From Elusimicrobia bacterium GWB2_63_22 (GTDB taxonomy: Bacteria > Elusimicrobiota > Elusimicrobia > Elusimicrobiales > UBA9959), in contig MGUA01000037.1 of assembly GCA_001799735.1 (NCBI GenBank), positions 1 through 64,000 of the forward strand: 64,000 nucleotides of DNA, written 5' to 3'. Positions 1 through 8,061 of this stretch are shown here, piece by piece (within the stretch, counting starts at the first letter, position 1; the number at the start of each line of letters is the position of its first letter). The notes beneath the pieces were generated by a model. The model had not been told where the DNA came from. It saw only the letters and a program-made list of their open reading frames with translations, and did no database searches. Position numbers and translations under genes: made by a program.

Positions 1-3000
1 GTCGGCCTCGGTGGGCAGCTTGTCCACTATGCGGTGGTAAACCTCCCACAGCTGCCCGGCGGTCTTGCCGGCGTACTTGTGGTTGAAGTAATGGGTGACT
101 TCCTTAAGCAGCGATTCCGTCACCGGGAAGGCCGAGGCGAACACCACGCCGGTCTCCGAGGCCACCGGTTCGGGCAGGGCCCATTTCAGCGGCAGGTAGC
201 TGCCGGTAGTGGTCTTCTTGTAGTAATGGATCAGCGGCAGGCCCGCGTCCTTGAGGGCCAGCACGCCGGCGCCGATGGCCATCTTGAACGTGGAGTCCAG
301 GGCCTTGGCCACGGTGTTGGGCAGGCCGAACTCGGCCTCGATGTCCAGCGAGCCGCGGCGGGCCGAGAGCTTTATGGCCTGGTCCACGGAGTCTATCTTC
401 TCTATGCTGTGGTTGCCCGTCGGGGATTTCACGACGCGGATGATGTTCTTGTCTATCTGCCTGGCGCGCCACTCGCCGGGGATGGGCTCTATCATGTTCT
501 TGCCGGCCAGGATCTCGTCGAGGTTGCCCTCGCGGAACAGCTTGTCCCAGGTGCCCGGCGTGCCGCCGGCTATGCCGGAGATGGCCATCGGGTTGAAGTT
601 GAAGCCGAACTTCTCGGCGAAGGAGGCCTTGTCCGCGGGCAGCGTCGCCGCGGGGAGCGGTACGGGGACACCATGCCGAATGGTGTCCCCCGCTGACGTC
701 TTCAGCGCCCAACCCTGGTAATACGGGTTAAAGAACTTCCCGCCGTTCTGCGGGAGCTTGCCGTCCCACTTCACGGGGATGCCGAGGGCCGTCATGTTGG
801 CCAGCAGGTCGTTAAGCTCGGTGATGCCGCCGCGCTTGGGGTGGTTGGACGCCAGCACGGTGATGTCCTTCTTGTCCTTAAGCGTGGAGGTGGCGAAGGC
901 GCTCAGCACGCGCTTGGGGCCGCACTCTATGAAAGTGCGCACGCCCTCGGCGTACATGCGCTCTAGCTGCGCGATAAACTCGACGGGGCTGGTCATCTGC
1001 TTGATGAGCATGTCGTAGATGCCCTGCGGGTCGGTCGGGAAGAAGTCCGCGGTGACGTTGGACAGGATCTTCATGTCCGCGGCCTTGATCGGGATGTTCT
1101 GCAGGAAGTTGCGGTACGGCCCCATGGCGGGCGCCACGATCTCGGAATGGAAGGCGTGGCTCACGGGGATCTCCCCCGCCTCGACGCCCATGGCCTTGAA
1201 GTGCTGCACGGCGGCTTCCACGGACTTGGCCTCGCCAGCGATAACGGTCTGCAGCGGGCAGTTCTTGTTGGCGCAGATGACATAGCCGGATATTTTCTTC
1301 AGCTCTACATCCACCTTGTCGCAGCCGAGCGCGATGGAGGCCATCTTGCCCGGGTCGGCCACCTGCACGTTGGCCATCTCCTTGGCGCGGCTGGTGACGG
1401 CCTTCAGGCCGTTCTCGAAGGTGAAGATGCCGGCCGCGGTGGCGGCGGCGTACTCGCCGAGGCTGTGGCCTATGGCCATGTCCGGCTTTATGCCGAATTC
1501 TTTGAACAGGCGGTACATTGCGATGTCGGCCGTCATCATGGACGGCTGGGTGAGCTGGGTCTGCTTGATGGCGGCTTCGCGTTTGGCCAGCTCCTCTTTA
1601 CCTTCTCCGGGCTTGCTCCAGATAGCCTCGGTCAGGCGGATGCCGATCATTTTCTCGAGGATGCCGTCGGCTTCGTTAAAGGTTTCCTGTACCACCTGGT
1701 ACTTGGCGGCGAGGTCGCGCATCATATCCACGTACTGCGAGCCCTGGCCGGGGAACAGCAGGCCCACCTTGGCCTGGTTGGTGCCGGTCTTGAAGGTGTA
1801 GACGCCTTTCAACTTGAAGTTGAGCGGCGGCTCGGTCCACGTCTCGGCCTTGCCGGTTTTGGCCAGCAGGTCCACTTTCTCCAGCAGGTCCTTCGGGGAC
1901 TTGGCTACTATGGACACGCCATAGGCGCCCTTGGCCTTCACCATGGAGGGCTGGGCGTACGTCGCCAGCGGGTAGGCTTCGGGCCAGCCTGCGAAGACGG
2001 CGGCGGCCTCGTTCTTGGCGTTGCTGATGACGTCGGCGGGAGTATTGCCGGTAAAGGTCACGGCTTCGCCCTGGAGAGCGCTGAAAGGCGCGCGGGGATT
2101 CTCGACTATCTCTACGGCGGGCGTCTCCGAGGCGGCGCCGGCCTTAGCGTAGCGCTGATGGTTCGGGCCGGTATACTCTTCCATGGTCACGTGGAAGTTG
2201 GTGCCGCCGAAGCCGAAAGACGAGACGTTGGCGCGGCGTATGCCGTTCTTGTTCCAGGGCGCGGCCTTGTCTATGACCTTGAAGAGGTTGAGGTCTATGC
2301 CGGGGTTGGGCTTGACGTAATTGATGGAGGTCGGCAGGGTCTTGTTGTAGATGGCGAGGGCGGTCTTGGCTATGGAGACGGCGCCGGCCGCGGCCTTGGA
2401 GTGGCCGATCTGGGATTTCACCGAGGTGAGGCCCAGCTTTTTACCGTTGCCCATGTGCGGGCCGAACACTTCGCCCAGCACAGCCACCTCGGCGGCGTCG
2501 CCTACCTTGGTGGCGGTGCCGTGGGCTTCCACAAAGTCCACGTCGGCCGGGGAATAGTCCACCCCGGCGAAGGCGTTCTCTATGGCGATCTTCTGGCCTT
2601 TGGGGTTGGGGGCGGTGATGCCCTTGCCCTTGCCGTCGGAGGAGGCGCCCACGGAATTGATGAGCGCGTAGATCTTGTCGCCGTCGCGCACCGCGTCGGA
2701 CAGGCGCTTGAGGATATAGACCGACACGGCCTCGGCCATCACAAAGCCGTTGGCCCGCTCGTCGAAAGAATAGGAGCCTTCGGCCGACAGCGCGCCGATC
2801 TTGCAGAACTTTACGAACGCCGGGGGCGACATCATCTCGTCGGCGCCGCCCGCCACCGCCATGTCGAACTTGCCCGCGCGCAGGCCGAGCACCGCGTAGT
2901 CGAGCGCCGCCATGGAGGAGGCGCAGGCCGCGTCCATGGTCATGTTGGGGCCGTTGAAATTGAAGACGTTGGCTATGCGGCCGGCCGTCACGTTGCTGAG

Positions 3001-3558
3001 CTCGCCGGGCATGGTGTCCTCGGTGATCTTGATGATGCCGTTGTCTATGCCTTCCTCGAACTCCTTTATCAGCTCCTCCCGCTTGGCGGCCGGCAGGGAG
3101 GCGAAGGAGGCGGTTTTCCTGAGGATGTCCTCGTTGTAGAACTTGTAGACGCGCAGGTCGGTCATTTCCTTGCGCATGGCGCCCATGGCGTTGCCGATCA
3201 CGGCCGCGGTCATTTTGGGGTCGAAGGGCTTCTTGTCGTAGCCGGAATCCTCCAGGGCCATGCGCACGGCCTCTATGGTCATCTGCTGCAGCCGGGAGAT
3301 CTGCTCCGCGGTCTGGGGCGGGATCTTGTACCTGATGGAGTCGAACTTGAAGCCTTCTATGAAGCCGCCTATTTTGGAATAGGTCTTGTCCGGAGCCTTG
3401 TGGTCTTCCGAGTAATAGAGTTTCCAGTCCCAGCGGTCGGCCGGCACTTCGCCTATGCAGTTGCGGCCTTCCGTGACGTTCTTCCAGAACTGGTCCTTGT
3501 TAAGGGCTTTGGGGGCAATGATACCGAGACCGACTATCGCTATTTTTTCATTGTTCAT
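1..3558 (-). CDS. KS-AT-KS polyketide / PUFA-type synthase (5' part, cut by window edge)
   Basis: Multidomain type I synthase, related to the PfaA-like enzymes that build long-chain fatty or polyketide lipids in the cytoplasm. The reading frame is open from the ATG at 3558 to base 1 (1186 codons), so the C-terminus is missing. Order seen: a ketosynthase at about residues 1-450 with the active-site Cys in DAACASS (near 209) and two His in EAHGTA (near 346) and GHSKAAAG (near 386); an acyltransferase at about 550-900 with GHSLGEYAA (near 699) and SHAFHS (near 800); then from about residue 980 what looks like the start of a second ketosynthase (a short glycine-rich segment, then a conserved IPGEWR-like stretch). 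No acyl-carrier domain lies in the visible part. The start follows a GAGAGG ribosome site. The exact lipid product cannot be inferred. KS and AT calls are secure; the second KS is less so. Confidence 0.88.
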   Translation of the reverse strand, partial: MNNEKIAIVGLGIIAPKALNKDQFWKNVTEGRNCIGEVPADRWDWKLYYSEDHKAPDKTYSKIGGFIEGFKFDSIRYKIPPQTAEQISRLQQMTIEAVRMALEDSGYDKKPFDPKMTAAVIGNAMGAMRKEMTDLRVYKFYNEDILRKTASFASLPAAKREELIKEFEEGIDNGIIKITEDTMPGELSNVTAGRIANVFNFNGPNMTMDAACASSMAALDYAVLGLRAGKFDMAVAGGADEMMSPPAFVKFCKIGALSAEGSYSFDERANGFVMAEAVSVYILKRLSDAVRDGDKIYALINSVGASSDGKGKGITAPNPKGQKIAIENAFAGVDYSPADVDFVEAHGTATKVGDAAEVAVLGEVFGPHMGNGKKLGLTSVKSQIGHSKAAAGAVSIAKTALAIYNKTLPTSINYVKPNPGIDLNLFKVIDKAAPWNKNGIRRANVSSFGFGGTNFHVTMEEYTGPNHQRYAKAGAASETPAVEIVENPRAPFSALQGEAVTFTGNTPADVISNAKNEAAAVFAGWPEAYPLATYAQPSMVKAKGAYGVSIVAKSPKDLLEKVDLLAKTGKAETWTEPPLNFKLKGVYTFKTGTNQAKVGLLFPGQGSQYVDMMRDLAAKYQVVQETFNEADGILEKMIGIRLTEAIWSKPGEGKEELAKREAAIKQTQLTQPSMMTADIAMYRLFKEFGIKPDMAIGHSLGEYAAATAAGIFTFENGLKAVTSRAKEMANVQVADPGKMASIALGCDKVDVELKKISGYVICANKNCPLQTVIAGEAKSVEAAVQHFKAMGVEAGEIPVSHAFHSEIVAPAMGPYRNFLQNIPIKAADMKILSNVTADFFPTDPQGIYDMLIKQMTSPVEFIAQLERMYAEGVRTFIECGPKRVLSAFATSTLKDKKDITVLASNHPKRGGITELNDLLANMTALGIPVKWDGKLPQNGGKFFNPYYQGWALKTSAGDTIRHGVPVPLPAATLPADKASFAEKFGFNFNPMAISGIAGGTPGTWDKLFREGNLDEILAGKNMIEPIPGEWRARQIDKNIIRVVKSPTGNHSIEKIDSVDQAIKLSARRGSLDIEAEFGLPNTVAKALDSTFKMAIGAGVLALKDAGLPLIHYYKKTTTGSYLPLKWALPEPVASETGVVFASAFPVTESLLKEVTHYFNHKYAGKTAGQLWEVYHRIVDKLPTEAD

Positions 3559-5564: not shown

Positions 5565-6875
5565 ATGGATGTTCTTGCTTTGAGCCGGCTGCAGTTCGCG
5601 GTAACCGCGATGTTCCATTTCCTCTTCGTGCCGCTGACGCTCGGCCTGGGCTGGCTGACCGCCTGGTTCGAAACGCGCTACGTCCGCACCGGCGACGCGC
5701 AATACCTTTCCATGACCCGCTTCTGGGGCAAGCTGTTCCTCATCAACTTCGCGCTCGGCGTGGTGACCGGCCTTACGATGGAGTTCCAGTTCGGCATGAA
5801 CTGGGCGGAATATTCCAAATACGTCGGGGACATCTTCGGCGCGCCGCTGGCCATAGAGGCCACGGTGGCCTTCTTCCTGGAATCCACTTTCATCGGCGTC
5901 TGGGTGTTCGGCTGGGACCGCATGTCCAAAAGGGCGCACGCCGGCGCCATGTGGATAGTGGCCTTCGCCACCAACATGTCGGCGCTATGGATCCTGCTGG
6001 CCAACGGCTGGATGCAGCGTCCCGTCGGCTACGTGCTGCGCAACGGCCGCGCCGAGATGGTGGACTTCATGGCGCTGCTGACCAACCCCTACGGCTGGCT
6101 GGAATTCTTCCACACCGTCTTCGCGGGCTGGGTGATCGCCGGGTTTTTTGTGATGGGCGTCTCGGCCTGGCACCTGCTCCGGAAGAACCAGGAGGAGCTG
6201 TTTAAAAAATCTTTCGGGACCGGCGCCGTATTCGCGCTGGCCAGCGCCCTGCTGCTCGCCGTGGTGGGCGACCTGAGCGGCGTTAACGCCGCCAGGAACC
6301 AGCCGGCCAAGTTCGCGGCGATGGAGTCCGTCTGGGAGACGCAGAGGGCAGCGCCGTACACGCTGCTCTCGCTGCCCAGGCTCAACGGCGAGGGCAACTA
6401 TTTCGAGGCGCTTAAAGTCCCTTATGCCCTTTCGCTCATGGCTTTCCGCGACCCGCAGGCCGAGGTGAAGGGCCTCAACGATTTTCTGCCCGCCGACAGG
6501 CCGCCTGTGCTGCCGGTGTTCCTGAGCTTCAAGGCCATGGTGGCCCTGGGCGGTCTTTTTATCCTGCTGTCCGCCGCCGGGGTCTGGCTGTGGCGCAAGG
6601 ACCTGCTGCAGCGCTACCCGCTTTTTCTGAAGCTGATGGTGCTGGCCATCCCGCTGCCCTACATCGCCATCCAGCTCGGCTGGATCGTCACGGAGATAGG
6701 CCGCCAGCCGTGGGTGGTGTACGGGCTGATGCGCACGGCGGAAGGCGTGTCCAAGTCGGTGACGCCGGCGCAGGTGTGGCTGTCGCTGGGCGGGTTCACG
6801 CTTTTCTACACGGCGCTCGGCGTGGTGGACGTCTGGCTCCTCGCCAAATACGCTCGCAAGGGCATGGAAGCCTAG
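5565..6875 (+). CDS. cydA: Cytochrome bd ubiquinol oxidase subunit I
   Basis: Catalytic heme-binding subunit of the bd-type terminal oxidase, which reduces oxygen to water with quinol at the inner membrane and has high oxygen affinity. The 436-residue protein has about nine membrane segments. His18 in the first helix matches the conserved heme ligand. The quinol loop is recognisable (GDLSG, then QPAKFAAMES with the conserved Lys and Glu), and GRQPW lies near the C-terminus. The length is shorter than the 520-residue E. coli protein, as in the short-Q-loop subgroup. It starts with ATG after GGAGGT and is followed by cydB, with a 125-bp palindrome between them. No cydX- or cydCD-like gene is visible here. 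Confidence 0.97.
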   Translation: MDVLALSRLQFAVTAMFHFLFVPLTLGLGWLTAWFETRYVRTGDAQYLSMTRFWGKLFLINFALGVVTGLTMEFQFGMNWAEYSKYVGDIFGAPLAIEATVAFFLESTFIGVWVFGWDRMSKRAHAGAMWIVAFATNMSALWILLANGWMQRPVGYVLRNGRAEMVDFMALLTNPYGWLEFFHTVFAGWVIAGFFVMGVSAWHLLRKNQEELFKKSFGTGAVFALASALLLAVVGDLSGVNAARNQPAKFAAMESVWETQRAAPYTLLSLPRLNGEGNYFEALKVPYALSLMAFRDPQAEVKGLNDFLPADRPPVLPVFLSFKAMVALGGLFILLSAAGVWLWRKDLLQRYPLFLKLMVLAIPLPYIAIQLGWIVTEIGRQPWVVYGLMRTAEGVSKSVTPAQVWLSLGGFTLFYTALGVVDVWLLAKYARKGMEA

Positions 6876-6877
6876 CA

Positions 6878-7002
6878 TCTCCGTCGGGGTGTCACCCTGC
6901 CACCCAGACCCGGGAACCGTTGCGCGGTTCCCCCCCGCCCTGGGAAATTAAGGCGGGGGGCCCCCTCCCCAACTGGGTTTCAGGGCGACACCCCGACGGA
7001 GA
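6878..7002. repeat. 125-bp palindromic element (MITE/REP-like) between cydA and cydB
   Basis: Two perfect 16-base inverted arms (6878-6893 and 6987-7002, core CCGTCGGGGTGTC and its complement) enclose a second nested pair (CCCTG..ACCCAG with CTGGGT..CAGGG), so nearly the whole segment can fold into one long cruciform or RNA hairpin. It begins three bases after the cydA stop and ends 33 bases before the cydB start. The loop is C/G-rich with no reading frame. It has the form of a small non-autonomous palindromic repeat. No second copy is present in the window. Confidence 0.75.
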
Positions 7003-7035
7003 CGCAGTTTAATAACAGTTGATCGTGAGGTAACT

Positions 7036-8061
7036 ATGGATTACGCTAAAATTTGGTTCGTGTTCTGGGCGGTACTGTGGACGGGGTATTTCGCGCTGGA
7101 CGGGTTCGACCTCGGCGTGGGGTTCTCCGGCTGGCTGGCGGCAGACAGCGACGAGGAACGCCGCGGGGTGTTCGCCTCGATAGGGCCTTTCTGGGACGGC
7201 AACGAGGTCTGGCTGGTAACGGCCGGCGGCGCCACGTTCGCGGCCTTCCCCCCCGTTTACGCCGGGCTTTTCAGCTGGCTGTACCCCGCGCTGCTGCTCA
7301 TCCTCTTCTCGCTCATAGCGCGCGGCGTGGCGCTGGAGTTCAGGGGCAAGGTGCAGTCCTCGTCGTGGCGGTCGTTCTGGGAAAGAACGGCGGCCGTCGC
7401 CAGTTTCTCCGCCGCCCTGCTGTTCGGCGTGGCTTTCGGCAATCTTTTCCGCGGCCTCGAGATCGGCCCCGACGCCTACTACGGCACTTTCCTGGGCCTG
7501 CTCAACCCGTACGCGCTGCTGACCGGCCTGCTCTTCTGCGCTTTCTTCTTCTTCCACGGCCAGCTCTGGCTGGCCTTCAAGGCCCCGCCCGGCGCGGCCG
7601 CGCGGGCAGCTAGGCTGGCCTCCAGGGGCTGGTACGTTCTCGCCGGGCTGCTGCTGCTGTTCATAGGCGCGAGCTGGCTGGCGACCGGGCTTTCCGGCAA
7701 CTTCCTCGTGCGCCCGTCCCTGCTGCTGCTCCCGCTGCTGCTCGTCGTTTCCCTCGCGGCGGCGAAGGTGCTGCTGGCCAGGGGCCTGCCCGGCAAGGCC
7801 TTCCTCGCCTCTTTCTCCTCCATCGTCTTTTTCTCGCTGACCGGCTTCGCCGGCCTCTACCCGGACCTCCTGGCCTCCAGGATAGACCCGGCGTTCAGCC
7901 TGACCGTCTACAACTCCGCCTCCAGCCCGTACACGCTGAAGCTGATGGCCTGGGTGGTGCTGATCTTCCTCCCGGTGGTGATCGGCTACCAGGCCTGGGT
8001 CTACAGGCTTTTCCGGGCCCCGCTTACTGAGGGAGAACTTAAAAAGAGCGGTATGTATTAA
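7036..8061 (+). CDS. cydB: Cytochrome bd ubiquinol oxidase subunit II
   Basis: Second structural subunit of the bd oxidase, an eight- to nine-helix inner-membrane protein that packs against CydA. The N-terminal signature (FWAVLWTGYFALDGFDLGVG) is typical of CydB, and the length of 341 residues is normal. The ATG follows GTGAGGT. It is co-oriented with cydA but separated from it by 160 bases holding the palindrome, which could lower cydB expression relative to cydA. The gene ends 45 bases before the next coding region. Confidence 0.97.
   Translation: MDYAKIWFVFWAVLWTGYFALDGFDLGVGFSGWLAADSDEERRGVFASIGPFWDGNEVWLVTAGGATFAAFPPVYAGLFSWLYPALLLILFSLIARGVALEFRGKVQSSSWRSFWERTAAVASFSAALLFGVAFGNLFRGLEIGPDAYYGTFLGLLNPYALLTGLLFCAFFFFHGQLWLAFKAPPGAAARAARLASRGWYVLAGLLLLFIGASWLATGLSGNFLVRPSLLLLPLLLVVSLAAAKVLLARGLPGKAFLASFSSIVFFSLTGFAGLYPDLLASRIDPAFSLTVYNSASSPYTLKLMAWVVLIFLPVVIGYQAWVYRLFRAPLTEGELKKSGMY

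Follow-up and report, generated by a model that had tools for sequence, protein, structure and literature searches.

A PUFA-synthase-like type I enzyme as the probable primary fatty acid synthase of the Elusimicrobiales

Introduction

The window, that is, the whole 64,000-nucleotide stretch of Elusimicrobia bacterium GWB2_63_22 analysed here (contig MGUA01000037.1; C37:1-64000 of its own assembly, genome G000), begins with the 5' part of a large type I synthase in which a ketosynthase (KS1) and an acyltransferase (AT) are followed directly by a second ketosynthase (KS2). Comparison across the phylum suggests that this synthase, a relative of polyunsaturated fatty acid (PUFA) synthases, is the primary enzyme of de novo fatty acid synthesis, and usually the sole one, in the order Elusimicrobiales and in two related families (probability about 0.75, on sequence evidence); equally probable is that a PUFA-synthase-like type I enzyme has taken over core fatty acid synthesis across the order. 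The more specific proposal that the order and its sister families exchanged their type II fatty acid synthase (FAS) for this enzyme, with its threonine-linked carriers, in one event is held with less confidence, and is somewhat favoured over its negation. An earlier note on the window had suggested that the gene may encode a less-studied secondary-lipid synthase, an exception in an otherwise housekeeping stretch. The kinship with PUFA synthases that it proposed holds, and the gene appears to belong to an already described kind of such synthases (Type R, see below); the label "secondary", on the other hand, is probably wrong, because the synthase occurs in 35/35 Elusimicrobiales, forms an operon with a phosphopantetheinyl transferase (PPTase) and a carboxyltransferase, and coincides with the loss of FabH, FabD and FabF. 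Its status as an exception probably falls as well, the synthase being better read as a housekeeping gene itself.

Distribution of the synthase and loss of fabH, fabD and fabF

The survey covered 89 genomes of the phylum, evenly drawn (90 requested) at a completeness of at least 90. The synthase was found in 37 of them: all 35 Elusimicrobiales (8 of family f1, the window's own, and 27 of family f2), G077 of family f5 and G104 of family f8; in several genomes, for example G024 and G081, it is fragmented at contig ends. It was found in none of the other 52, which gave only FabF-, FabD- or polyketide synthase-like partial matches among the matches listed. Canonical FabH (at least 107 bits) shows the opposite distribution, with 50/52 synthase-less genomes against 0/37 synthase-bearing ones, and the same split holds for FabF-sized ketosynthases (at least 130 bits) among the matches listed, which reach down to about 88 bits. 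The highest FabH-family score in a synthase-bearing genome (97.8 bits, G089) belongs to a gene outside any fab cluster, judging its neighbours by eye; the other weak scores (78-84 bits in G000, G073 and G061, 55-61 in G102, G104 and G077, 20.6 in G063) likewise lie below every canonical FabH score. None of the 12 f2 genomes searched for a stand-alone malonyl transferase gave a match. Missing data were considered as the source of the FabH and FabF absences and rejected, in view of 35 genomes with a listed completeness of 93-100%, one of them a single contig, and of the conserved gene order on both sides of the deletion. Among the 52 genomes without the synthase, the two that have no canonical FabH or FabF, G051 and G087, also lack PlsX, and G051 lacks AcpP; they are possible fatty-acid auxotrophs, or their assemblies have gaps.

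Synteny of the old fab locus was inspected in 11 of the 89 genomes. All four synthase-less genomes have the order plsX-fabH-fabD-fabG-acpP-fabF-rnc, and all seven synthase-bearing genomes have plsX-fabG-acpP-rnc; the genes gone between plsX and rnc are exactly those for condensation (fabH, fabF) and malonyl loading (fabD). In a small FastTree phylogeny of plsX, fabG and rnc, the synthase-bearing families group together (local support 0.973), and since they lie on one side of this split, a single ancestral replacement is likely. Among the matches listed, ketosynthase C-domain matches did not exceed the synthase's own one or two in 16/27 f2 and 6/8 f1 genomes; these 22/35 Elusimicrobiales thus have no ketosynthase beyond that of the synthase, in line with a sole long-chain condensing enzyme.

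Domain architecture of the synthase

The open reading frame (ORF) at the left end of the window is the only long coding frame there, and its codon-phase composition is gene-like (GC3 0.89, GC2 0.42). Base 1 is a true contig edge; there is consequently no DNA further left, and the synthase is truncated by the contig start (Table 1). Pfam places KS matches at residues 4-289, 297-414 and 417-472 and makes no call past residue 908. Cys, His, Lys and His occupy the FabF catalytic columns in the KS1 alignment, in keeping with the complete catalytic set that the earlier note had read there; the GHSLG motif of the AT, the open 5' part of a large synthase and a second KS starting near residue 980 were also correctly seen.

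Table 1. Features of the truncated synthase gene at the left end of the window.
Feature	Position	Strand	Evidence and remarks
5' part (1186 aa) of a KS-AT-KS-ACP(n)-KR-DH type I synthase	1..3558	(-)	Open at base 1
KS1, PfaA-like ketosynthase (residues 4-472)	2143..3549	(-)	Pfam; catalytic Cys is residue 212; His, Lys, His conserved
AT (residues 601-908)	835..1758	(-)	Pfam; GHSLGE at residues 697-702
KS2 N-half, FabF-type ketosynthase (residues ~984-1186)	1..609	(-)	Homologues; KS2-profile match to FabF; a relative's KS2 against PDB

The remainder of the architecture comes from complete relatives, in which the order is KS1, AT, KS2, about 2-5 acyl carrier protein (ACP) domains, ketoreductase (KR) and dehydratase (DH); Pfam recovered KS, AT, KS, ACP repeats, KR and PKS_DH in two full proteins. 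Complete copies mostly measure 2,900-3,200 aa (2,430 to 3,202 among those measured), and some loci have ACP counts outside 3-6, part of which the assembly may have collapsed. AT and KS2 are not separated by a carrier domain, so that the absence of an intervening carrier, which the earlier note had pointed out as foreign to the PfaA order, is borne out. The window protein was matched in all 31 genomes of a first search for relatives. Among the 58 loci that it retrieved from the GTDB collection, 56 came from records titled Elusimicrobia, Elusimicrobiota, Elusimicrobiales or Elusimicrobium, or from bacterial bins, with best-segment identities of 58-94%; the remaining two (33-36%) are KS-AT matches in one Longimicrobiales and one Hydrogenedentota record. 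The AT of the relatives carries GHSLGE and HAFH, which we take to mark a malonyl-type transferase. A pattern scan recovered the glycine motif and Ser/Tyr of the KR, and HxxxGxxxxP and a Glu-containing second motif of the DH; neither G077 nor G104 matched the KR Ser/Tyr and second DH patterns, G077 also gave no match to the KR glycine pattern, and G104 none to the first DH pattern. A PDB search with the ACP region gave weak ACP matches only.

The C-terminal part of the window genome's own synthase (last ACP, KR and DH) was located at G000:C10:23354-26146, stopping inside an ACP repeat at the end of contig C10 (26,148 bases). The assembly break thus falls inside KS2 on one side and among the ACP repeats on the other; the stretch between them (the rest of KS2 and the first ACPs) could not be located in the assembly.

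The second ketosynthase

Residues ~984-1186 of the window protein align with the N-terminal half of KS2 in every complete relative examined but G022, which has no KS2; the catalytic Cys, His and His of the window's own KS2 fall beyond base 1. A KS2 profile matched the FabF profile over FabF columns 33 to 411 (hhalign 99.8%, E 1e-29), and the complete KS2 of a relative matched FabF structures in PDB (E 2.6e-24). The window's KS2 half by itself retrieved no ketosynthase from PDB by phmmer, only chance kinase matches, and an AlphaFold model of KS2, built with six sequences, had a mean pLDDT of 38.5, too low for use. Viral and phage searches with KS2 returned no relative of the synthase, and one FabF-like match in one phage record. 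A chain length factor (CLF), which has the KS fold without the active-site Cys, was considered for this domain and rejected in most members, as Cys, His, Lys and His stand at the FabF catalytic columns in 10/10 aligned KS2 domains; the CLF of a PUFA-type protein on contig C22 of the window genome has Glu where KS2 has its catalytic Cys. A broader motif scan found many loci with the same KS2 motifs; these loci were chosen by one motif, and exceptions are not countable in that set.

Threonine in the carrier repeats

The position of the phosphopantetheine serine is occupied by Thr in 112/112 scored ACP motif repeats from 46 loci, the scored residue having been left free in the pattern; L076 and L124, counted as two loci, come from one and the same contig, and an extra pattern match in L054, outside the carriers, is due to chance. 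(The L076 record, G050 contig C24, is titled Elusimicrobium minutum yet falls into the window's family f1, and is likely a mislabelled metagenome-assembled genome.) Thr is also found in G022 (one repeat), G058 (three) and G060 (one); by comparison, AcpP and the PfaA carriers on C22 of the window genome have Ser, as do the carriers of the two KS-AT-only matches (L082, L083). The scored Thr is the sole hydroxyl residue of the motif, and we infer that phosphopantetheine would be attached to it. In one E. coli study, the exchange Ser36Thr abolished one ACP interaction, which its authors attribute to the phosphopantetheine arm (PMC13343975). No paper describing natural Thr-ACPs was recognised in the literature searched.

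Operon partners and proposed cycle

Of the 25 loci whose downstream DNA extends for 2 kb or more, 24 have a PPTase gene and then a carboxyltransferase gene 3' of the synthase, the exception being L077; in this count L076 and L124 are the same contig, and loci with short downstream sequence, the duplicates L091 and L097-L100, and the Nonomuraea locus L129 are left aside. Among the 24 is the C-terminal half of the window genome's own synthase (C10, L120), which the two genes follow on the same strand. The PPTase that the earlier note had suggested looking for is therefore a regular neighbour; PfaB, PfaC and PfaD, named with it, were not found in neighbouring ORFs at six loci (by eye) or by Pfam in the two downstream genes, and the pfa genes of this genome lie on C22 with a PfaA of their own. 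The carboxyltransferase, of acyl-CoA carboxylase type, belongs to the biotin-dependent family PF01039 (Pfam); since its best NCBIfam model, mmdA, stays below cut-off, carboxylation of acetyl-CoA is only a putative activity.

In the proposed cycle, the carboxyltransferase, with biotin carboxylase and biotin carboxyl carrier protein encoded elsewhere, would supply malonyl-CoA, which the AT would load onto the tandem ACPs after the operon PPTase has placed the phosphopantetheine arm on their threonines. KS1 would condense, with KS2 assisting or priming; KR would reduce and DH dehydrate; a separate enoyl reductase would end each cycle, and the finished chain would pass to AcpP and PlsX for phospholipid synthesis. 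In G077 (f5), FabI is encoded directly upstream of the synthase. There is a precedent: in P. profundum, the malonyl transferase domain of PfaA takes the place of FabD in vivo, as cloned Pfa synthases do in E. coli (PMC8174602).

Counter-evidence and alternative explanations

Several observations weigh against the synthase as the primary and usually sole fatty acid synthase. Extra KS matches occur in 13/35 Elusimicrobiales, none of them canonical FabF; they are pfa-type in G000 and G102, and the other 11 genomes are of family f2, with an aryl-polyene-like cluster in the one inspected. FabG, AcpP and FabZ are retained (AcpP and PlsX in 37/37 synthase genomes, FabZ-like proteins in 34/37), so other enzymes may work beside the synthase. 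In G058 and G060, KS2 has degenerated (~30% identity, all four catalytic residues lost), and in G022 it is deleted altogether; it is thus not always needed. These exceptions belong to one f2 genus, and the three genomes also lack FabZ and have a single KS C-domain match each, and in them KS1 alone seems to be enough for condensation. One probable replacement event also means that the contrast between 37 and 52 genomes does not amount to 89 independent observations. Finally, no FabI (E<=1e-20), no FabK-like protein above 37 bits and no FabV were found in the 35 Elusimicrobiales. Many synthase-less genomes of the phylum, including many with standard type II genes, are likewise without a recognised FabI, FabK or FabV: FabI reached E<=1e-20 in 3/89 genomes (G104, G077 and, weakly, G069), FabK-like proteins of at least 119 bits occurred in 16 genomes plus one in which the protein is split in two pieces, none synthase-bearing, and FabV in one of the 89, plus one weak match.

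The retained genes give rise to the main rival, a hybrid in which AT and KS of the synthase act in trans on AcpP, FabG and FabZ, a type II cycle with condensation and malonyl loading supplied by the megasynthase. Deletion of precisely fabH, fabD and fabF with FabG, AcpP and mostly FabZ kept would suit this arrangement, as would the FabD activity that Pfa synthases can lend to a type II system in vivo (PMC8174602). It would, however, render the synthase's own tandem ACPs, KR and DH, whose motifs are conserved, redundant; FabG and AcpP may serve other pathways, and three genomes have no FabZ. The hybrid is judged unlikely, though it is compatible with the synthase as primary FAS, and confidence in the two need not sum to one.

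Scavenging of membrane fatty acids, with the synthase making a special lipid as a true secondary-lipid synthase, is still less probable. The small f2 genomes (1.3-1.8 Mb) would fit auxotrophy, and the E. minutum homologue has been classed among secondary lipid synthases (PMC3098273); however, the same gene pattern recurs in the larger f1 genomes (2.1-3.4 Mb), some gene-bearing records are titled as groundwater isolates, and the synthase is universal in the order as examined, with a carboxyltransferase in its operon.

ORFs resembling acyl-CoA dehydrogenases and electron transfer flavoproteins follow the standard fab cluster in several members of the phylum, as judged by eye (L114, L116, L115 and L117 of G085, G069, G049 and G044), and are a candidate enoyl-reductase system for the phylum. 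They could also be taken to favour fatty acid synthesis by thiolase-based reverse beta-oxidation, the synthase having another role, which we regard as very improbable.

Comparison with known synthases

The window gene appears to belong to the Type R secondary lipid synthases, described by Shulse & Allen (2011; PMC3098273) as KS-MAT-CLF-ACP(3-6)-KR with a PPTase (MAT, malonyl acyltransferase) and a product not known; members are Koribacter, Solibacter, Roseiflexus and Elusimicrobium minutum Pei191. Horizontal acquisition, suggested from GC content in work cited there, was not borne out by that paper's own analysis. Apart from the name of the second domain, the order KS-MAT-second KS-like domain-ACP-KR agrees, with ACP counts outside 3-6 at some loci; the downstream PPTase and the membership of E. 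minutum are shared (PMC3098273). In contrast to that description, most members have Cys-His-Lys-His in the second domain, there called CLF; there is also a DH at the C-terminus, and we propose primary fatty acid synthesis as the role, from the loss of fabH, fabD and fabF. The Type R order is seen in the relatives; the window alone shows KS-AT and the N-half of KS2.

PfaA (TIGR02813) has a related KS (KS1 is 40-44% identical to the KS of the same-genome PfaA), an AT, tandem ACPs and a KR. It differs in that the present synthase has an additional KS placed after the AT and before the ACPs, Thr where the ACPs of PfaA have Ser, and no PfaB, PfaC or PfaD alongside. The TIGR02813 cut-off of 1010 bits is exceeded by the C22 protein (1543) and reached neither by the full E. 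minutum homologue (935) nor by the window part (544); the earlier suspicion that this is not a genuine PfaA was therefore justified. Moreover, the window genome has a separate true pfa cluster on C22, and the window gene is accordingly not its PfaA.

In bacteria, type I fatty acid synthases are known mainly from Actinobacteria, where, as in fungi, a single giant protein stands in for the type II genes as primary fatty acid synthase. The present synthase differs from these in domain order and origin, in the type II remnants kept beside it (fabG, acpP, plsX), and in having no enoyl reductase (ER) or malonyl/palmitoyl transferase (MPT) domain recognised by Pfam. A locus in Nonomuraea gerenzanensis (NZ_LT559118.1, about 5996624-6004375) shares the order KS-AT-KS-ACP-KR/DH-like, a KS2 of 47% identity, one Thr-ACP, and PPTase-like and carboxylase-like matches downstream; it differs in its single ACP and in a large adjoining carboxylase-like ORF.

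The literature searched, including the accessible parts of PMC3098273, PMC11257099 and PMC13014828, contained no statement of a primary FAS role for such a gene in Elusimicrobia; the E. minutum genome paper (Herlemann 2009) lay outside this coverage and may say so. As far as we have seen, what is new is the interpretation as a primary synthase, a second KS that is intact but has decayed in one genus, the DH at the C-terminus, and carriers with Thr.

Other genes in these genomes

The C22 cluster of the window genome (L121:1877-18028) is a complete pfa cluster of PfaA, a PfaBC-like protein (KS-CLF-AT-FabA-like(4)) and PfaD; its PfaA and PfaD both exceed their cut-offs. One of the two FabH-family matches of this genome is a ketosynthase III beside this cluster (NF006720, 457 bits against a cut-off of 285); we take NF006720 to be an OleA-like group. 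The cluster suggests a polyunsaturated lipid or hydrocarbon as its product. The inspected f2 cluster (L133, G028:C1:865000-884000), presumably aryl-polyene-like, has two ~400-aa KSs, an ACP, a short-chain dehydrogenase/reductase, an AMP-binding enzyme, a glycosyltransferase and an LpxL-like acyltransferase; similar KS pairs occur in other f2 genomes. Within the window, a cydA/cydB-like pair (by eye) lies near the synthase at 5565-8061, and similar ORFs are found near the synthase in L030.

Implications

If the synthase is the primary fatty acid synthase of these bacteria, it would represent a second, independent replacement of a type II FAS, visible as the in-place excision of fabH, fabD and fabF, and would illustrate how an essential pathway can pass to a "secondary" lipid synthase. 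Membrane lipid synthesis would then proceed on Thr-linked carriers made by a dedicated PPTase, and the synthase would constitute a natural experiment on threonine as a phosphopantetheine site.

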